Program-made: the position numbers and the translations under genes
Origin: a virus
IMG/VR virus record: IMGVR_UViG_3300032241_000904
Span: 1 to 24,580 of that record
Reading direction: 5' to 3' (one strand)
Length of the DNA: 24,580 nucleotides
Shown here: piece by piece, positions 8,852-18,963 of the stretch
Layout: the number at the start of each line of letters is the position of its first letter
How positions within the stretch are numbered: the first letter of the stretch is position 1
The notes under the pieces: model-generated
The model's input: only the letters and a program-made list of their open reading frames with translations
What the model was told of the DNA's origin: nothing
Databases searched by the model: none

Positions 8852-10238
8852 TGTCCAAAAACTATTCTTAGAAATGATGTTGCAAGACGCAGAGTCGTAT
8901 GTGCGTGTGCAGAACATTTATAATCCCGAAAACTTTGATAGAAGTTTGCGCCCAGCGGCCGAGTTCATTGCCCGCCACAGCGACGAATACAAGACTCTGC
9001 CCACAGTAGATCAAATCGGTGCCAGTACAGGTGTTAAGTTACAGACTGTGCCAGATTTAAATGAAGGGCACTTTGAATGGTTTATGTCTGAGTTTGAAAG
9101 TTTTACTCGCAGACAAGAACTAGAACGTGCTATTCTTAAGTCAGCAGATCTGTTAGAAAAAGGCGAGTATGATCCGGTAGAAAAACTTATCAAAGACGCA
9201 GTTCAAATCAGCTTGACCAAAGACATGGGCACAGATTACTGGGCTGATCCAAGACAACGTATTGACAAGTATTTTAATTCGGGCGGACAGGTAAGCACAG
9301 GTTGGCCACAGATGGACAAGATCCTGTATGGCGGATTCAGTCGTGGTGAACTGAACATTTTTGCAGGCGGATCCGGATCAGGTAAGTCGCTGGTTATGAT
9401 GAACATAGCATTGAGCTGGTTGCAAGCAGGACTGAGCGGTGTGTATATCAGCTTAGAACTCAGCGAAGAACTGTGTGCCCTAAGAACTGACGCCATGTTG
9501 AGTGGCATGAGCACAAAAGAAATACGCAAGGATATTGATCAAACTGAACTCAAAGTCAAATTGGTATCGAAGAAAGCCGGACAGTATAGAATCAAGGCCC
9601 TACCAGCACAGAGCAACATCAACGACATTCGTAGCTATATCAAAGAAGTACAGGTACAGACCGGAATCCGGGTAGATTTTGTCATGTGTGACTACTTGGA
9701 CTTGTTGATGCCAGTCAGTGCCAAGGTTAGCCCAAATGACTTATTTGTCAAAGACAAGTATGTGTCGGAAGAACTGCGTAACTTGGCCAAAGAACTCAAC
9801 GTGTTGTTTGTGACAGCGTCGCAGTTGAATCGATCGGCTGTGGAAGAAATTGAATTTGATCACAGTCATATTTCAGGTGGCATCAGTAAGATCAACACAG
9901 CAGACAACGTGTTTGGTATTTTTACCAGTAGAGCTATGCGTGAACGTGGCAAGTATCAGATCCAGTGTATGAAGTCACGTAGCTCAACAGGCGTTGGTAT
10001 GAAGATTGACCTAGACTACAACATTGAAACCATGCGTATCACAGACCCTGGCGAGGAAGAACAATCTGGATTTAGACGTCCTGGCGGCAATTTACTGGAT
10101 TCGATCAAGGCAAAAAGCACAATGATTAACGGTACCGAACCTGCTAATCCCGCAGACAGAGAAGAAGCGGGCAAAATTACAGCCGATGTACAAAGTGCCA
10201 AATTAAAGCAGTTGTTAGGGCAGATTAAAACGTCATGA
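8829..10238 (+). CDS. 41: Replicative DNA helicase (T4 gp41/DnaB-like)
   Basis: The hexameric helicase unwinds the fork ahead of the phage polymerase and carries the primase. The N-terminal 140 residues are the helical DnaB-type domain. The RecA-type motor starts near STGWPQMDKILYGGFSRGELNIFAG, with Walker A GGSGSGKS at 180-187, the helicase H2-type segment VDFVMCDYLDLL near residue 294, and the conserved TASQLNRSA block. The long C-terminal tail (GFRRPGGNLLDSI onward) is variable and may hold the primase-contact region. Length is 469 residues against about 475 in T4. The start is TTG at 8829, supported by AAGGAAG at 8815-8821, seven bases upstream; no ATG occurs nearby that would keep the whole first helix. 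Confidence 0.93.
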   Translation: MLKDYGLDVQKLFLEMMLQDAESYVRVQNIYNPENFDRSLRPAAEFIARHSDEYKTLPTVDQIGASTGVKLQTVPDLNEGHFEWFMSEFESFTRRQELERAILKSADLLEKGEYDPVEKLIKDAVQISLTKDMGTDYWADPRQRIDKYFNSGGQVSTGWPQMDKILYGGFSRGELNIFAGGSGSGKSLVMMNIALSWLQAGLSGVYISLELSEELCALRTDAMLSGMSTKEIRKDIDQTELKVKLVSKKAGQYRIKALPAQSNINDIRSYIKEVQVQTGIRVDFVMCDYLDLLMPVSAKVSPNDLFVKDKYVSEELRNLAKELNVLFVTASQLNRSAVEEIEFDHSHISGGISKINTADNVFGIFTSRAMRERGKYQIQCMKSRSSTGVGMKIDLDYNIETMRITDPGEEEQSGFRRPGGNLLDSIKAKSTMINGTEPANPADREEAGKITADVQSAKLKQLLGQIKTS

Positions 10239-11350
10239 CCGATCTGTATTGTTCTATGATACACGGCGGATTAAATTTGAATTTTAAATCCAAGACGGTG
10301 TTAGTACAAAATTGTTGTCTACGCAGAGATTTGTCACCAATTTCTGTTGATCAAGATATTTGGAATAATCCTGCGCTGGTACCGTTGAGAGATATCAATA
10401 AACAAAATATTTGGGATCCAGGTTGTTCAAACTGTCGACAATTAGAAGCAATGTCTTACGACAGCTTTAGAACAGGTATGAACAAAGGTTTACAAATGTA
10501 CGGACAGTCTAATTTAACTGGCCCGGCACGAATTGACCTTATGTTTGATATTAGTTGTAATTTAGCTTGCCGTATTTGTGGCGTAGACAACAGCACCTAT
10601 TGGCAACGACATCTTAAAGATCATGGTCAATGGAATCAACCTATATCAACTCCAGGTAAAAAATCTCAGGTAATTGACGCTTTAAGTAAACTAGATCTTT
10701 CAAACTTAAGGCAATTGGTGTTTTGTGGTGGCGAAACTTTATTGGGGCAAGAATATTGGGATGTAGCCAGGTGGTTGGCAGACCATATGCCCAATGCTGA
10801 TCGTCAATTGACCTTGTGTTTTCAAACCAATGGCACACAATACATACATGCTAAGAATTTTGATACAATTAAGAAATTTCATTTGGTAAAATTACACATC
10901 AGTTTAGACGGAGTTGGTGATAAATTTGAGTATCAACGGTGGCCAGCTAACTGGAATCAAGTCTCCAATAACATATTGAATTTACGGGAAACTTTGCCCA
11001 GTAATGTAATGTTTGTGGTAGAAGAAACTATTAGTATATTTAATTTACTGTATCAACAAGAACTGGATACATGGGTCGATACAAATTTTAACACCAATAG
11101 AGAAGGCGACATTACTAATCATACCAAGCACATGGCTGCTGGTATATTCAATCTCAATAACATGACACAAGAATATGCAGATTTATTAACTAAATCTGCA
11201 TATAAAAATTTCGTGCCAGTTGGGTGGAAAGAAAATTCCAAAAACATACAGAGCATGCTAGAGGAAATCAAGAAATTTGACGCTTTACGAGGCGAATCCT
11301 TTGAACAGGTGTTTCCTGAATTAGCAAATCTTTACCGCAGATTCTGGTAA
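10235..11350 (+). CDS. Twitch/SPASM-type radical SAM protein
   Basis: Radical SAM enzymes use a [4Fe-4S] cluster and S-adenosylmethionine to make a 5'-deoxyadenosyl radical. The cluster motif is intact: C108-x3-C112-x2-C115 in FDISCNLACRICG. The SAM-binding GGE follows at 165-167 (VFCGGETLL), and QTNGTQ and HISLDGVG mark later strands of the TIM-type barrel. An extra N-terminal module has CCLRRD and a GCSNC pair (C64, C67) leading into LEAMSYDSFR, typical from memory of a radical SAM family widespread in aquatic T4-like phages. The substrate is unknown. Length is 371 residues. ATG overlaps the helicase stop (ATGA). Its stop codon lies inside the next late-promoter motif. Base composition is more AT-rich than the primase/helicase genes. 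Confidence 0.88.
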   Translation: MTDLYCSMIHGGLNLNFKSKTVLVQNCCLRRDLSPISVDQDIWNNPALVPLRDINKQNIWDPGCSNCRQLEAMSYDSFRTGMNKGLQMYGQSNLTGPARIDLMFDISCNLACRICGVDNSTYWQRHLKDHGQWNQPISTPGKKSQVIDALSKLDLSNLRQLVFCGGETLLGQEYWDVARWLADHMPNADRQLTLCFQTNGTQYIHAKNFDTIKKFHLVKLHISLDGVGDKFEYQRWPANWNQVSNNILNLRETLPSNVMFVVEETISIFNLLYQQELDTWVDTNFNTNREGDITNHTKHMAAGIFNLNNMTQEYADLLTKSAYKNFVPVGWKENSKNIQSMLEEIKKFDALRGESFEQVFPELANLYRRFW

Positions 11351-11353: not shown

Positions 11354-11373
11354 ATAAAAAGGTCTTGGCCATT

Positions 11374-11622
11374 ATGCAAAAGAAAACTCGTAGCCTGTTG
11401 GAAGAATTAGATGCCATGTATATCGAGCGCGATCAGCGCCATGTTATTGAAAATCGTGCATCCAACATTATCTCTTCGGCTATACGCTTGTTGGAAGAAA
11501 TTGAAGGTAGTTATAGTCCCGAACAGGCCGATAATCTCACACGAAAATTGCTCAATGCCATACGGTTAAAAGACCCTGCCAAATTTACCAGGACTGTCAG
11601 GAAAACCGATGCAAATTCATGA
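11374..11622 (+). CDS. Small helical protein, unknown function (82 aa)
   Basis: The protein is highly charged and almost entirely helical (RSLLEELDAMYIERDQRHVI, then SSAIRLLEEIEG and a basic tail). There is no signal peptide or known motif. The ATG at 11374 is preferred to a TTG at 11365: AAAAAGG at 11356-11362 lies about 11 bases upstream of the ATG and only two before the TTG. It is the first gene after a late-promoter motif and overlaps the next gene by 14 bases. Together with the two following genes it forms a late unit, so a virion or assembly role is possible. Confidence 0.75.
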   Translation: MQKKTRSLLEELDAMYIERDQRHVIENRASNIISSAIRLLEEIEGSYSPEQADNLTRKLLNAIRLKDPAKFTRTVRKTDANS

Positions 11623-12463
11623 AATCACCCTAGTCCAAGAAGGTTTCCTTGACAAGGTAAATGACTTAAAAAAAGCCTTTGGCACACCCGGTGCCATGAC
11701 CAGCTCGGCCAAATTCAATCAAATACAGCAACAAGGTCAATCACAGAGACAGACTTCGGACTACGTTAAAAAATTAGCTGCTGAATGGCTACAGACAGCA
11801 AAGACCATGCCAGCGCCAACACCGGCGGCCGCACCGGCACCTGCTCCAAAAGCCACTCCAGGACAAATGCCATCTTCGGTTGCGCAGAGCCGCCAAGGTC
11901 AACTCATGCAACAGGTTTATGGTAAACCCACAGGTGGTATACAAGGCATGCAGTCTGATTTAGAGGAAGCTCGTGTGGATCCTGCTAAGTTGGCTACAAT
12001 GAAACAACGAGCTCGCGTGGCACCACCCACAGCACCTTCATCTGCGACAACACCTACACCAACAACACCTACATCGACAGCACCGGTATCAAACTCAGTA
12101 GTACAACAATTTCGTCAATGGGTTGATAAAAAAATGGCCTCAACTATTCCAGGCACACGCCAACAGTTGAACATGGACATGGTACGTTCTCAATTGCCTG
12201 ACATAGGTTTACAATTATCATCTGCCTTGTCAAGGGTAGAACAGGCACCCACAGATCCTGCTGCAATTGAAGCTTATATCACTATCGCGGTACAAGGCAT
12301 ACAGAGATTGTCACAACAACTCAAACAACAGGACCCTGGCTTGGCCAAAAAAGCCACATCCTACGAAATTGGACCAGCTCAGCGAAATAATAACTATGTT
12401 AAAACAACTAAGAATCCCGAAGCGGATGCAGCACTCAGAGCTCAAGGATTTGTGGTACAATGA
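11609..12463 (+). CDS. Pro/Ala/Thr/Gln-rich probable virion protein
   Basis: The 284-residue product starts MQIHEITLVQEGFLDKVNDL. It then has long low-complexity linkers: a Pro/Ala run at about 69-85 (PAPTPAAAPAPAPKATPG) and a Thr/Pro run at about 141-160 (PTPTTPTSTAP). Between and after them are Gln-rich helices such as VVQQFRQWVDKKM and IQRLSQQLKQQD. This make-up of helices separated by flexible linkers is usual for internal head, scaffold or tail accessory proteins. I can name no family. The N-terminal M-x-I-x-E matches those of three other genes in this window (12460, 16385, 17293). The start lies inside the preceding gene and the stop overlaps the ATG of the fusion protein, so the three are coupled. 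Confidence 0.75.
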   Translation: MQIHEITLVQEGFLDKVNDLKKAFGTPGAMTSSAKFNQIQQQGQSQRQTSDYVKKLAAEWLQTAKTMPAPTPAAAPAPAPKATPGQMPSSVAQSRQGQLMQQVYGKPTGGIQGMQSDLEEARVDPAKLATMKQRARVAPPTAPSSATTPTPTTPTSTAPVSNSVVQQFRQWVDKKMASTIPGTRQQLNMDMVRSQLPDIGLQLSSALSRVEQAPTDPAAIEAYITIAVQGIQRLSQQLKQQDPGLAKKATSYEIGPAQRNNNYVKTTKNPEADAALRAQGFVVQ

Positions 12464-14394
12464 AAATATTTGAAGGTGGCAACGTATTCAAAGATCAAGA
12501 TGGTCGTGCGCTGACTCAACGCATAGCCCAGACTGATGTCAAACCTACCTTGGCCTGGTTAGAGCACATGTTGCCAGACCTGGATCTGCAAAACAATACC
12601 TTGGGTTCAACCGGTATCAAAGACACATCGGGTGACTTGGATATTGCTGTGGATGCTAATGCGGTTAGCAAAGAACAACTAGAACAACAACTGCGTGCCT
12701 GGTGTACCAGCCAAGGACTCAAACCAGAAGAATGGATCAAGCGTTCAGGATCAGCAGTACATTTTAAAACACCCATCGATGGCAGACCCGATCGTGGTTT
12801 TGTACAGACTGATTTTATGTTTATGAAGGATGTACCATGGTCAAAATTTGTGTTAGGTGCCATGCCTGCAGACTCTAAGTACAAAGGCCGCGAGCGTAAT
12901 GTGTTGATGAATAGCATAGCCAAAAGTATGGGCTACAAACTGAACCAAAATGCCGGCATTTCCAAACGAGATCCAAATAATACTCTTATTACAAATGATC
13001 CGGATGCTGTGGCCAAGCTACTGCTTAATAAAAAGGCCACACGTCAAGATCTAGCTTCAGTGGAATCAATCCTACAAGCACTTAGCACAGATCCTGCTCG
13101 TGAGGCCAAACTGGCTGACTTCCGAGCTCACATGGAACGTGAGGGCTTGCCTTTCTTGGAAGATACTATGGAAGGTGCAGATCCCTACATTGAGTACAGT
13201 GATGTAAACTTCCTAGCTCGTCTGCGTGATCGCATTGTGAATCAAGGCATGCAAAAGTTGATTGAAAGTGAAGTGCAAGGCGGACGTGCCAAGGGCATTG
13301 AACATCTTGAAGATCTTGTGTTCCGCTCAGGCAGTCGTGGAATCAAACAGGCCATGGACATTGTTCGTCATACCACCGCTGACACAGGTAAAACTACCAC
13401 AGTCAAATGGGATGGAAAACCTGCCCTGGTATTTGGCCGTGATGCCAATGGCACATTTATCCTGACTGATGTAGCAGGATTTGGAGCCAAAGGTTACAAC
13501 GGCCTGTTTACCAGCCCACGGAAAGTCACACAACATCTGGCTGCTAGAGATACAGAAGCTGCCGCCCAAGGCCGACCTGCTACTCGTGTAAGAGATCTAG
13601 CACCCATCTACGATAAACTATGGCCCATGTTGGAGGCCGCAGTACCAAAATCGTATCGTGGCTTTCTCCAAGGCGATCTCCTGTACACAGATAAACCACC
13701 CATCGAAGCTGGTAACTTTGTTTTTACACCCAATGCTGTAGAGTATAAAATTCCAGTGGCCAGTGATGTAGGCAAACGCATTGATGCCAGTGATGTGGGC
13801 ATTGCCATGCATACCAAGTACGCCGAACCCGGTGCACCCAAAGAGCCCATTGGCACGTTTAAATTTAAGACAGTGCCGGGTCTACTCCTGTTGGAGCCTG
13901 TGTACCCCAAAGAAAATGTACGGGCCAATAAAGAAATGGTTGCTCAACTGCGCGATGTCTACACCAAGGGTGGTGCCGCAATAGATCAACTGTTTAATCC
14001 TGCAGATCTTAGAGCCTTACAAATCACAGACCTGCCTCGACTGTGTGTGGATTATATCAACAGCAGAGTAGGTGGTACTTTTGACAACTTGTTGGCCGGG
14101 TTTGGTGCTTGGTTACAGCAACGGGTAAGTCCAAGAAAGTTTGCCAACATTGTAGAATACCTGCAGAGTCCCCGTAGCAACATAGGTGGCATGGCCGCGG
14201 CCTTCACAGCCTGGGTCCTGCTACACGATATCAAGATGGATCTACTACAGCAGTTGGATCTACAACACCCTGGACAAGAAGGCTGGGTCATGGCCACCGA
14301 TGCCGGTATGGCCAAGGCTGTAAACCGTTTAGCAGGCGGATTTACCGCGGCTAATCGTGCTGTAAATAACCCAGAATCCCAACCAAACTCCTAA
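12460..14394 (+). CDS. Fusion of Pol-beta-type nucleotidyltransferase and ligase-like KxDG domain
   Basis: This 644-residue protein carries two different nucleotidyltransferase signatures. Residues 48-62 (LGSTGIKDTSGDLDI) fit the Pol-beta superfamily pattern, G-S then D59-x-D61, with a third carboxylate candidate D118 in VQTDFMF. After a linker, residues 279-480 look like a covalent nucleotidyltransferase of the ligase/capping fold: motif I KWDG at 316-319 with K316 as the adenylation candidate, GFLQGDLLY at 401-409 (motif III position), VEYKI at 427-431 (motif IV) and FKFK at 467-470 (motif V). From memory, stand-alone relatives of the second half, with a similar EHLED...KWDG layout, are common in aquatic T4-like phages and unassigned (possibly the DUF6267 group). 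The C-terminal 150 residues are helical. Substrate and activity are unknown; both active sites look intact. Confidence 0.75.
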   Translation: MKIFEGGNVFKDQDGRALTQRIAQTDVKPTLAWLEHMLPDLDLQNNTLGSTGIKDTSGDLDIAVDANAVSKEQLEQQLRAWCTSQGLKPEEWIKRSGSAVHFKTPIDGRPDRGFVQTDFMFMKDVPWSKFVLGAMPADSKYKGRERNVLMNSIAKSMGYKLNQNAGISKRDPNNTLITNDPDAVAKLLLNKKATRQDLASVESILQALSTDPAREAKLADFRAHMEREGLPFLEDTMEGADPYIEYSDVNFLARLRDRIVNQGMQKLIESEVQGGRAKGIEHLEDLVFRSGSRGIKQAMDIVRHTTADTGKTTTVKWDGKPALVFGRDANGTFILTDVAGFGAKGYNGLFTSPRKVTQHLAARDTEAAAQGRPATRVRDLAPIYDKLWPMLEAAVPKSYRGFLQGDLLYTDKPPIEAGNFVFTPNAVEYKIPVASDVGKRIDASDVGIAMHTKYAEPGAPKEPIGTFKFKTVPGLLLLEPVYPKENVRANKEMVAQLRDVYTKGGAAIDQLFNPADLRALQITDLPRLCVDYINSRVGGTFDNLLAGFGAWLQQRVSPRKFANIVEYLQSPRSNIGGMAAAFTAWVLLHDIKMDLLQQLDLQHPGQEGWVMATDAGMAKAVNRLAGGFTAANRAVNNPESQPNS

Positions 14395-15209: not shown

Positions 15210-15659
15210 ATGCGATTTGCCTGTACCACCTTGTTTGATATTACTGCTACTGGAATAACTGGACATTTTAAATTGACCCGTATTCCATTCACAGATCAGG
15301 CCGGGCATACAATAAGTTCTGTTACAGACTGGAATATGGCTCGCAATCAACAAAGAAACTGGGAAACTTTAACTCAAATCATTGGCATGCGTACTCAGAT
15401 ATTCAACATGACACCGCCTGAGCGTCGGCCTGGCCTGACCTGGCGATTTGAATTTGAAACTGAAACCGACGGAATTTTTGGAGACGATACGGACCCAGTC
15501 AGTGTGTTACGTCAAGATGCCGCAGGAGTGCCCATGTTGCTGGATCTGACCAATAGAAGTGATCTGGCGCCTATGTTGATTACCTCTGGTCCAGAACAAA
15601 ACATTTGGTTTGAACCCGTAGCTATAAATACAATCGAAGAGATTGACAATCAATCCTGA
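15210..15659 (+). CDS. Hypothetical late protein, 149 aa
   Basis: This is a soluble protein with a strand-rich first third (ACTTLFDITATGITGHFK), a central basic-aromatic helix NQQRNWETLTQIIGMRTQ, and an acidic second half (FEFETETDGIFGDDTDPVSV). I recall the NWETL-Q-I-RTQ block from unassigned proteins of aquatic T4-like phages. No enzyme motif, signal peptide or membrane segment is visible. The ATG follows the preceding stop with no gap and no Shine-Dalgarno of its own beyond the coding region, so it probably depends on coupling. A perfect TATAAATA late promoter lies in its 3' end and serves the next gene. Confidence 0.75.
   Translation: MRFACTTLFDITATGITGHFKLTRIPFTDQAGHTISSVTDWNMARNQQRNWETLTQIIGMRTQIFNMTPPERRPGLTWRFEFETETDGIFGDDTDPVSVLRQDAAGVPMLLDLTNRSDLAPMLITSGPEQNIWFEPVAINTIEEIDNQS
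15623..15630 (+). promoter_or_regulatory. Perfect T4-type late promoter TATAAATA
   Basis: This is an exact match to the T4 late consensus, inside the 3' end of the 149-residue gene and 43 bases before the ATG at 15674, leaving a leader with AGGAA at 15661-15665 as ribosome site. Confidence 0.6.
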
Positions 15660-15940: not shown

Positions 15941-16434
15941 AATCAGACCAAGAATTTGATCGCATGTTTCGACAGGAATTTTGCGATATTGTTGACAATT
16001 TAATTTGGCAAAACGATGAAGGAGAATATGAAGTATTTGGAAAATACCGTATAATTCCTCAGCGTCCGGGATATCAGGTATTTTGTTCAGCCACCGATGC
16101 CGGCACATTTCACAGCACAAGAACTGCACTCAGTTGGTGTATTGCTGACAAACACTGTGCCTATAACCTGGCTAGAGAGTTGTTGGAAACAGACAACAAG
16201 TTATACAGCTTAAATCAGGACATATCGGCTCGTACAGCCGTGGGCGAACGTAGCAAAGACCCTAATTTTCGCGATATTATTGCAACCAAATTGGAAAGCA
16301 AAATCATAAACAAAAAACGCCTGGAAAATCAACTGACCAAATGTGTAAACTGGGCTAAATACTGTCAACAACGAGGATTCGAAAATGAAACTGCAAGAAC
16401 TGGCCGTACCAAGTCAAACAAAACAAGCCGCTAA
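15937..16434 (+). CDS. Hypothetical late protein, 165 aa
   Basis: The first 65 residues are acidic and aromatic, with an EYEVFGKYRIIPQRPGYQVF segment that looks like two strands of a small domain. I recall a similar FGKY block in unassigned aquatic T4-like phage proteins. The remainder is helical and basic (ATKLESKIINKKRLENQLTK), probably a coiled coil. There is no membrane segment or enzyme motif. It begins in an ATGA overlap with the membrane protein gene, and its last 50 bases also encode the start of the next protein, an unusually long overlap for this window. Confidence 0.75.
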   Translation: MKSDQEFDRMFRQEFCDIVDNLIWQNDEGEYEVFGKYRIIPQRPGYQVFCSATDAGTFHSTRTALSWCIADKHCAYNLARELLETDNKLYSLNQDISARTAVGERSKDPNFRDIIATKLESKIINKKRLENQLTKCVNWAKYCQQRGFENETARTGRTKSNKTSR

Positions 16435-17293
16435 GGTATTTGAAAGCTATTTTGGCGATCGTATCTCTTTTGAGACTATTTCCCGCCGCCAGGCTCAGAC
16501 CTTATTGAACCGTGTGCGCAAGTTGGTCAGCGAACATCGACGCACTCCTAAATTCCATCACAGCGAACAAAATCCTGCCTACATGAAATTGATCATGTTG
16601 GAGCAGGTCCTGTCAGCTCGTATCAAAGAAGAACAAGTACAAGGCACTGTAGTTCCTACAGGTGGCATGGGTCAACCTGGTCAGAATCCTCAACAACAAG
16701 CTGGCCTACAACAAGCCGCTATTCAGCAAGGCAAAAAACAAGCCCAAGAACAAATGAAACAGATTGACCAGCAGATGGCACAACTGCAACAACAAAAAGC
16801 ACAACTGCAACAACAGATGAACAATCCAGCTGCCATGGCTGAAAGTCGTCGCCGTGCTCGCCGCCTGCGCGAAGCTTCTGAAATTCAACAGGCCCAGGTA
16901 GTCCTGGCCAGCCAAGACATGGTCGATCAAGTGCAAAAAATGAGCGAACAAGTAAGTGCCATGCAGTTTAAAGATCTTCCGGCCTTGGTTGATCAAATTA
17001 AAAACGAAGTCGGTGTTGACCAAGCCATGCAATTCAATACAGATACAACTGCTGCACTTGCAGGTTTGTTACAAAATTTACAAGGTGCCAAGACTCAACT
17101 TGAACAGGCCACTGGCGTAGTCACAGGACAGGCTCCACAGATTCCAGGCGACGACCTAGGCGCACCACCTGACATGGGTGCTGATATGGGTGCTGATATG
17201 GGCGGAGAAGAAATGCCACCTGAATTACCAGCACCAGGCGAAGAAGAAGAATTACCTACCCCATCTGCAAGTTTGGGACGTGGCCGTAGATAA
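16385..17293 (+). CDS. Gln-rich coiled-coil, probable scaffold/internal head or tail protein
   Basis: The 302-residue product begins MKLQELAVPSQTKQAAKVFE, then has a conserved-looking block ISRRQAQTLLNRVRKLVSEH followed by HHSEQNPAYMKLIMLEQVL (residues 34-80), which I recall from unassigned aquatic T4-like phage proteins. Residues about 105-150 are a Gln-rich coiled coil (QMAQLQQQKAQLQQQ) and the next 90 residues are helical. The C-terminus is Pro/Gly/Asp/Glu-rich with a tandem DMGA repeat and ends in RGRR. This is typical of scaffolding or internal proteins. GAGGA at 16373-16377 supports the ATG at 16385, seven bases on, despite the 50-base overlap with the preceding gene. Confidence 0.75.
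   Translation: MKLQELAVPSQTKQAAKVFESYFGDRISFETISRRQAQTLLNRVRKLVSEHRRTPKFHHSEQNPAYMKLIMLEQVLSARIKEEQVQGTVVPTGGMGQPGQNPQQQAGLQQAAIQQGKKQAQEQMKQIDQQMAQLQQQKAQLQQQMNNPAAMAESRRRARRLREASEIQQAQVVLASQDMVDQVQKMSEQVSAMQFKDLPALVDQIKNEVGVDQAMQFNTDTTAALAGLLQNLQGAKTQLEQATGVVTGQAPQIPGDDLGAPPDMGADMGADMGGEEMPPELPAPGEEEELPTPSASLGRGRR
17171..17205 (+). repeat. Tandem 12-bp repeat (three units)
   Basis: Units GACATGGGTGCT, GATATGGGTGCT and a partial GATATGGGCGG follow one another in frame and encode DMGA-DMGA-DMGG. Such in-frame repeats change copy number by slippage, so length may vary between related phages. Confidence 0.85.
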
Positions 17294-17640
17294 TGTTGAT
17301 TCGTGAATTTGCTGACGATAACACAAATTCTGATGCTGTAAAATTGGCCAGTCTGGCAACTTTGTTGGCAGATCGAGCCGACGATGAGGGTGCTCAGAAA
17401 CAAATCAGTCAGGAGGCCTTTATTGAAGCAGCCAAAAGTCTTGGAGTTAATCTTACTCCCGATACGTTAGCCACAGCAATTGGTATGGAACCACTTAGCA
17501 ACATCTTGGAGCCATTGGATCTACAATCTGGCATAGTCAGTTTCAAAGGCGATACCGAAGCCACAACCGGAATGAGTGTAGATCAGGCACAGGCAGTGGT
17601 CAATTCAAATGCCAAGGCAGCAATGAAGCGTCGCCAATAA
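17293..17640 (+). CDS. Hypothetical late protein, 115 aa
   Basis: This helical protein starts MLIREFADDN, has KLASLATLLADRADDEGA, ISQEAFIEAAKSLGVNL and a closing MSVDQAQAVVNSNAKAAMKRRQ block. From memory the GD-x-MSVDQA ending is shared by small unassigned proteins that sit directly after the Gln-rich coiled-coil gene in aquatic T4-like phages, so the pair probably works together in the virion or its assembly. There is no membrane or enzyme signature. Its ATG overlaps the preceding stop by one base. A consensus sigma70 promoter for the next module begins two bases after its stop, marking a late-to-early border. Confidence 0.78.
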   Translation: MLIREFADDNTNSDAVKLASLATLLADRADDEGAQKQISQEAFIEAAKSLGVNLTPDTLATAIGMEPLSNILEPLDLQSGIVSFKGDTEATTGMSVDQAQAVVNSNAKAAMKRRQ

Positions 17641-18290: not shown

Positions 18291-18671
18291 ATGGCATATT
18301 CAGAAAAAGTAATTGATCACTATGAAAATCCACGTAACGTGGGCAAGATGGACGCCACTGACGATTCAGTGGGCACAGGTATGGTAGGTGCTCCGGCTTG
18401 CGGTGATGTAATGAAGTTACAAATCCGAGTAGAAGATGGGATTATAACAGATGCAAAATTCAAAACATACGGGTGTGGGTCGGCGATCGCGAGTAGCAGT
18501 CTCGTCACGGAGTGGGTCAAAGGAAAAACGCTTGAGCAGGCTGGATCAATTAAGAACAGTGACATCGCTGAGGAACTCGCGCTACCGCCAGTTAAGATCC
18601 ATTGCAGTATCCTTGCGGAAGACGCTATTAAGGCCGCGATAGATGATTACCGTAACAAACACAGCCAGTAA
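18291..18671 (+). CDS. iscU: IscU, Fe-S cluster assembly scaffold
   Basis: IscU receives sulphur from IscS and iron, builds a [2Fe-2S] cluster and hands it on with HscA/HscB. The 126-residue product is full length and very close to beta/gammaproteobacterial IscU by memory. All ligands are present: C37 and D39 in APACGDV, C62 in YGCGSAIASSS, and H104-C105 in KIHCSIL; the HscA recognition motif LPPVK is at 98-102. The start has AGAGG at 18281-18285. It is two bases after the exported-protein gene and overlaps iscA by 29 bases. IscS, HscA, HscB and ferredoxin are not in the window, so it must use host partners. Parts of the gene (18481-18540, 35 of 60 bases G or C) are richer in GC than the flanks, consistent with transfer from a bacterium. 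Confidence 0.97.
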   Translation: MAYSEKVIDHYENPRNVGKMDATDDSVGTGMVGAPACGDVMKLQIRVEDGIITDAKFKTYGCGSAIASSSLVTEWVKGKTLEQAGSIKNSDIAEELALPPVKIHCSILAEDAIKAAIDDYRNKHSQ

Positions 18672-18963
18672 AAAAATCAAAGACAATTTAACCAAGCGTG
18701 GCAAAGGCATTGGTATCCGTGTGGGTGTAAGAACTACCGGTTGTTCAGGACTTGCTTATGTGTTAGAATATGTAGATGAGTCATGGCCCGGATCTACCAG
18801 TTACTTGCAAGACGGATTCAGCATAATAGTAGACAACAAAGACTTGCCTGTTGTAGGTGATATAGAAATAGATTATGTTCGTCAAGGCCTCAACGAAGGT
18901 TTTGAATTCAACAACCCTGTAGAACGAGACCGCTGTGGATGCGGAGAAAGTTTTCGTGTATAA
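18643..18963 (+). CDS. iscA: IscA-type A-type Fe-S carrier
   Basis: A-type carriers bind iron or a cluster and pass [2Fe-2S]/[4Fe-4S] clusters to target enzymes. This 106-residue protein has the three ligand cysteines: C34 in RTTGCSGLAY and C98/C100 in RCGCGESF, the family's end signature. RGKGIGIRVGVR and FVxQGLNEGFxF-like segments (here YVRQGLNEGFEF) match proteobacterial IscA rather than ErpA or SufA in my judgement. The ATG at 18643 lies 29 bases inside iscU, an overlap much longer than in the usual host isc operon, where the genes are separate, so the pair has been compacted in the phage. An insertion-like SWPGSTSYLQDG region around 47-58 replaces the usual EPxPED-type loop. Confidence 0.93.
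   Translation: MITVTNTASKKIKDNLTKRGKGIGIRVGVRTTGCSGLAYVLEYVDESWPGSTSYLQDGFSIIVDNKDLPVVGDIEIDYVRQGLNEGFEFNNPVERDRCGCGESFRV

Follow-up and report, generated by a model that had tools for sequence, protein, structure and literature searches.

The window analysed here is a stretch of 24,580 nt, positions 1 to 24,580 of the IMG/VR virus record IMGVR_UViG_3300032241_000904. It carries an open reading frame whose product joins a family-X polymerase-like domain to a DUF6267 ligase-like domain, and this reading frame is real and conserved. A first scan of IMG/VR recovered 336 stretches encoding relatives of the fusion protein, and 97 complete proteins, the window copy counted, have the same fusion, with C-terminal halves down to 44% identity. 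These 97 proteins formed the comparison set, and residue conservation was counted over 98 aligned copies. The features of the gene and of its neighbours are listed in Table 1.

Table 1. Positions of the fusion gene, its sequence features and neighbouring genes in the window.
Feature	Position (nt)	Strand	Residues	Remarks
Gene for 85-aa protein	11365..11622	+		phrog_11854, virion structural; homologues in same place in L169 and Atu_ph07
Gene upstream of fusion	11609..12463	+		4-nt overlap with fusion start; MQIHE leader on variable body
Fusion gene, family-X polymerase-like and DUF6267 ligase-like domains	12460..14394	+	644 aa	ATG start
N-terminal tag MKIFE	12460..12474	+	1-5	Candidate prohead-protease site
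Family-X polymerase-like domain	12487..13155	+	about 10-232	Model, PDB fold matches
GSTG and SGDLD	12604..12642	+	49-52 and 57-61	Nucleotide-binding turn and first two catalytic Asp
Third catalytic Asp	12811..12813	+	D118	
DNA_pol_B_thumb match	12898..12987	+	147-176	Weak Pfam match, E 0.038
Conserved linker helix DVNFLARLRDRIVNQGM	13201..13251	+	248-264	Low pLDDT in model
L-I-E	13258..13266	+	267-269	Inter-domain candidate prohead-protease site
DUF6267 ligase-like domain	13300..14367	+	about 281-636	Pfam, model
Motif I KWDGKP	13405..13422	+	316-321	Predicted nucleotidyl-lysine K316
Motif III-like QGDLLY	13669..13686	+	404-409	
Motif IIIa-like GIAMHT	13798..13815	+	447-452	
Motif IV EGWV	14278..14289	+	607-610	
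Motif V KAVNR	14314..14328	+	619-623	
Gene for 302-aa protein	16385..17293	+		MKLQE tag; phrog_14154, virion structural
Gene for 115-aa protein	17293..17640	+		MLIRE tag

An earlier note on this DNA had placed the gene in a late unit and linked it to virion genes. The link is borne out by neighbours in PHROG virion structural families, which also agree with late expression, but the whole window contains a single exact match to the T4-type late promoter (TATAAATA), at 15623, downstream of the fusion gene rather than upstream. Elsewhere in the window, a radical SAM protein (10235-11350, E 5e-8) is encoded between a DnaB-type helicase and the virion-type genes, and an IscU-like gene (18291-18671, NifU_N, E 6e-53) adjoins an IscA-like one (18643-18963, Fe-S_biosyn, E 1.4e-15), a pair of iron-sulphur assembly proteins in a phage.

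Two nucleotidyltransferase domains in one protein

The AlphaFold model of the full fusion protein (58-sequence alignment) has a mean pLDDT of 87.9, and consists of two separate confident domains, at about residues 10-232 and 281-636, joined by a low-confidence linker. This agrees with the earlier claim of two different nucleotidyltransferase folds in one protein, and it is supported that a single polypeptide joins both with their active sites intact. The catalytic residues of the two halves are invariant or nearly so among homologues. A limited literature search found no described enzyme with a polymerase-X and ligase-like domain pair, as had been supposed.

The Pol-beta-type signature that had been read in the N-terminal half, a GS followed by DxD and a third Asp, is present as G49-S50, S57-G58-D59-L60-D61 and D118. 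D59 and D61 are conserved in 97 of the 98 aligned copies, the exception being that of contig L104, and D118 in all 98. Modelled alone, the domain reached a pLDDT of 93, and its best 50 fold matches in the PDB were all to family-X polymerases (Pol lambda, Pol beta and Thermus PolX; probability 1.00, E from 2.7e-5), with no tRNA or poly(A) nucleotidyltransferases among them; the full-length model added Pol mu and TdT. The matches span 186-213 alignment columns, more than a palm alone would take up, so the thumb subdomain is covered as well. The Pfam search of the window protein gave no family match for this half; among the relatives, DNA_pol_B_thumb was the commonest match (10 of 31 members, best E 0.011), under its curated cut-off. 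Identity to family-X polymerases is 11-19%, and a single helix stands ahead of the palm in the model, where neither helix-hairpin-helix fingers nor a lyase domain is seen. Family X includes minimal members without fingers, and the size of the N-terminal half is close to that of minimal viral PolX. The prediction of a minimal family-X polymerase with a thumb is, at the level of the model, well supported. Scans of bacterial genomes with this half, and of viral contigs with the PA5oct polymerase, returned no relatives. Profile searches of the PDB gave DesK for A3 (E 2e-4), serpins for A2 and catenins for A1, all judged spurious, and an NCBIfam CheD match was dismissed at 18.1 bits against a cut-off of 236. 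In the L104 homologue (L104:5554-7101) the polymerase half no longer has GS or DxD and is missing some of the domain, and the ligase half and linker L-I-E are still intact.

The C-terminal half belongs to Pfam DUF6267 (PF19782; E 1.5e-28, 100.6 bits against a curated cut-off of 27). The earlier note had described a KxDG domain with motifs III to V ending at residue 480. The KxDG part stands, as K316-W-D318-G319-x-P321 is invariant in 98/98 copies, but the domain runs to about residue 636, and motifs IV (E607-G608-x-V610) and V (K619-x-V621-x-R623), both invariant, lie at 607-623, outside the proposed limits and beyond a helical insertion at about 491-602. Residues 468-470 were discounted as a site for motif V, lysines 468 and 470 being conserved in just 34/98 and 63/98 copies. 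Throughout the fusion clade K316, D318, G319, P321, D406, E607, G608 and K619 are each found in 98/98 copies, and eight divergent DUF6267 proteins share invariant KxDGxP (motif I, 8/8), QGD, GIxxHTxY, EGxV and KxV. Motifs I, III, IIIa, IV and V are present in that order, which is the order known from covalent nucleotidyltransferases; motif III has D where E is usual. From these motifs, the assignment of a ligase/capping-type covalent-nucleotidyltransferase set is well supported. The model contains no C-terminal OB-fold, with no strands beyond motif V and the protein ending about 20 residues on, and a standard DNA ligase is therefore not indicated. The earlier expectation of recognisable folds is upheld for the N-terminal half by its family-X matches; for the C-terminal half the full model gave one weak match to a tRNA-ligase adenylyltransferase domain (prob 0.63), along with weak matches to viral ligases.

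Stand-alone relatives and gene pairing

Relatives with one half alone, which the earlier note had envisaged, were found for both halves, with DUF6267 in cyanophages and pelagiphages and the polymerase in jumbo phages. Stand-alone DUF6267 occurs also in Melnitz, DLP6 and XaC1, and often adjoins an HxGH nucleotidylyltransferase; in contig L158 (L158:5989-7776) and in S-PM2 the two are fused. This constitutes a second fusion type of two nucleotidyltransferase folds. Genes adjoining DUF6267 in the pelagiphage and Melnitz cassettes (L091:2911-6368 and L083:3899-4984) look by eye like a PD-(D/E)xK nuclease, which has no family match, and a P-loop kinase. A nuclease-like neighbour shared by PA5oct and DLP6 was considered and was not significant (E 0.1).

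Four jumbo-phage lineages (Atu_ph07, Phosso, contig L169 and PA5oct) encode a homologue of the polymerase near a different ligase-like protein, which has the motifs EKxDG, EGxV and KI. For Atu_ph07, Phosso and L169 the polymerase gene follows and overlaps the ligase-like gene, behind a DnaB helicase, and the 85-aa virion-type protein has a homologue encoded in between in both Atu_ph07 and L169, the arrangement seen in the window; PA5oct-type phages have two other genes between the pair. The polymerase is encoded in every one of the 14 phage records where the jumbo ligase-like protein occurs. In Lak phages no ligase-like partner of the polymerase was recognised, and Phosso has a second polymerase copy elsewhere in its genome. 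Similarity between DUF6267 and the jumbo ligase-like family is no more than distant (hhalign E 2.4e-6, prob 89%), and the latter matches Pfam RNA_ligase weakly (E 0.002), with one member named RNA ligase in UniProt. As four jumbo lineages pair the genes, and three share one position behind the helicase, the pairing does not appear accidental and is well supported. Pairing of polymerase-X-like with ligase-like enzymes thus takes at least two forms, which differ in their ligase-like family, and this apparent coupling of the same chemistry by two routes argues for a joint function.

N-terminal tags and candidate prohead-protease sites

The sequence M-x-[IL]-x-E begins four genes of the window (at 11609, 12460, 16385 and 17293; P = 2e-4 against background), one of which belongs to a PHROG virion structural family, and another 20 loci have members of the same gene families with this tag. 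MQIHE opens the product of the gene upstream of the fusion in 67 of 76 cases, and identity drops from 77% over the leading seven residues to 29% in the body, the pattern that a targeting leader on variable cargo would show. The L128 copy of this gene is joined in frame to the polymerase-ligase gene. A leader MQIHE[IL]T with a hypervariable body is found in almost all fusion-bearing contigs and looks like a variable head cargo family.

All 97 fusions have [I/L/V]-x-E directly ahead of GGN, just before the polymerase domain, and all 97 have [I/L]-x-E at disordered-linker residues 267-269, where the middle residue is variable and the next is mostly A, S or G. The [I/L]-x-E at the two domain boundaries fits the consensus of the T4 prohead protease gp21, which cleaves after L/I-X-E (PMC9026906). 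The folded ligase domain itself contains another two conserved [I/L]-x-E, and presence of the motif is therefore not sufficient proof of cutting. In T4 the targeting sequence uses residues 4 and 7 for targeting and 8 and 10 for processing (PMC9026906), and the M-x-[IL]-x-E tag is shorter than this 10-residue leader, which makes the likeness partial. Several stand-alone DUF6267 leaders, such as MKNFRQFLTES and MKSLKSFIIEE, fit the T4 spacing; the T4-type leader motif is present in 16 of the 30 stand-alone proteins examined, about half being without it. The linker [I/L]-x-E, the family-X assignment with a thumb, the large DUF6267 family and the jumbo-phage pairing were all unforeseen by the earlier note.

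A gp21-type protease is present in the L169 record and in one DUF6267-only record. None was found in the 7 fusion-bearing records searched, all incomplete, and the PF04586 protease is absent from the fusion contigs. The fusion-bearing records searched, again incomplete, yielded no gp23 gene bar one fragment, a 115-aa ORF like the N-terminal part of gp23 (L176:1459-1806) in a record otherwise devoid of gp23 matches. ESI-MS/MS is the basis on which the PA5oct homologue of the polymerase is annotated as structural; its ligase-like neighbour carries no MS note. In S-SM1 the gene of the HxGH protein T4-GC190 overlaps the DUF6267 gene (T4-GC71); the accessible part of the S-SM1 report has T4-GC190 detected in virions and does not name DUF6267 among the virion proteins (PMC3037559).

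Proposed function and comparison with known systems

A role at nucleic-acid ends, as the earlier note had proposed, is plausible given the intact active sites, and its further suggestion of capping or protein modification found no positive support. We predict that the fusion is head-packaged end-repair cargo, consisting of a polymerase and a DUF6267 ligase-like enzyme, and regard this as evenly poised between right and wrong. Its packaging into the head is probable and its cleavage in the prohead about even. More tentatively, the packaged protein may be a polyprotein from which the prohead protease releases a family-X polymerase and a ligase, and the two would be injected jointly to serve as an end-repair kit. 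The fusion would be made alongside virion proteins, and its N-terminal tag would direct it to the inside of the prohead. Cutting after [I/L]-x-E would then remove MKIFE and leave a new start, GGNVF, resembling the starts of the stand-alone polymerase homologues (MGGxAF, MSGNAF or MSGMAI), and a second cut would part polymerase from ligase. Having entered the cell with the DNA, the enzymes would go to work as infection begins, repairing either RNA or the ends or gaps of phage DNA: the family-X half may add nucleotides to an end or fill a gap, and the DUF6267 ligase-like adenylyltransferase may seal the end via a lysine-nucleotide intermediate. This catalysis, substrate and timing we infer. As the conserved linker [I/L]-x-E suggests prohead cutting, the fusion need not act as one two-domain enzyme.

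An uncut two-domain enzyme could instead repair RNA in the infected cell in the manner of T4 RNA repair, its polymerase half adding ribonucleotides to cleaved tRNA or other RNA, DUF6267 joining the ends and the [I/L]-x-E motifs being incidental. The missing OB-fold strands beyond the C-terminal core, the tRNA-ligase domain as best PDB match of this half, the RNA_ligase match of the jumbo partner and a pelagiphage cassette P-loop protein adjoining DUF6267, read as putative kinase-like, would all suit such an enzyme. We nevertheless consider it unlikely, since the N-terminal half resembles family-X DNA polymerases rather than tRNA or poly(A) nucleotidyltransferases among its best 50 matches, and the tag and neighbours point to the virion. 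It is quite improbable that the protein is a virion enzyme closing DNA nicks or gaps during packaging or head maturation and not needed after injection; the family-X fold and virion-type neighbours fit this equally well, but the cellular role of injected T4 head proteins (PMC9026906) makes delivery at least as likely. That the C-terminal half adenylylates proteins or small molecules, as other nucleotidyltransferases can, with the N-terminal half an unrelated passenger, is very improbable: DUF6267 is elsewhere fused to an HxGH nucleotidylyltransferase, yet the KxDG motif set is the one found in enzymes that join or cap ends, and genes for the polymerase repeatedly occur next to those for ligase-like proteins. 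A head structural protein with relic enzyme folds would agree with the virion-type neighbours and the lost polymerase active site of the L104 homologue, but is hardly credible in view of catalytic residues kept (nearly) invariant in both halves across deep divergence.

If the halves of the fusion are packaged, as we favour, injection of a repair kit by phages would be established, and the mending of incoming DNA or RNA at the first step of infection, for example against host nucleases, would become directly testable. If the packaged polyprotein is cut, the DUF6267 proteins of cyanophages and pelagiphages would likewise be ligases delivered by the virion. A testable function is now offered for DUF6267, to which no role had been assigned; matches to relatives of this family came from 221 phage records.

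The invariant motifs of DUF6267/phrog_455 (P-HM1 gp161, S-SM1 T4-GC71) are identical to those of the C-terminal half, but most members, unlike the fusion, stand alone or by the HxGH nucleotidylyltransferase, without a polymerase domain. Family-X enzymes (Pol lambda, beta, mu, TdT and Thermus PolX) share with the N-terminal half a palm with the catalytic Asp triad and a thumb, at low identity and with fingers and a lyase domain that its model does not show. The jumbo pairs, like the fusion, combine a homologous polymerase with a ligase-like partner, but as separate genes, in the opposite order and with a ligase-like family distant from DUF6267. Bacterial LigD both extends and seals ends with one polypeptide, as proposed for the fusion, but has an archaeo-eukaryotic primase-type polymerase and an OB-fold ligase; neither the domain order nor the polymerase fold is homologous. 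We know of no T4 internal head protein with a polymerase or ligase, nor of one cut into two retained enzymes. The T4 proteins Alt and IPI-III nevertheless offer a likeness to the proposed route of the fusion, as they have a short N-terminal targeting leader, are processed at L/I-X-E and are injected with the DNA (PMC9026906).
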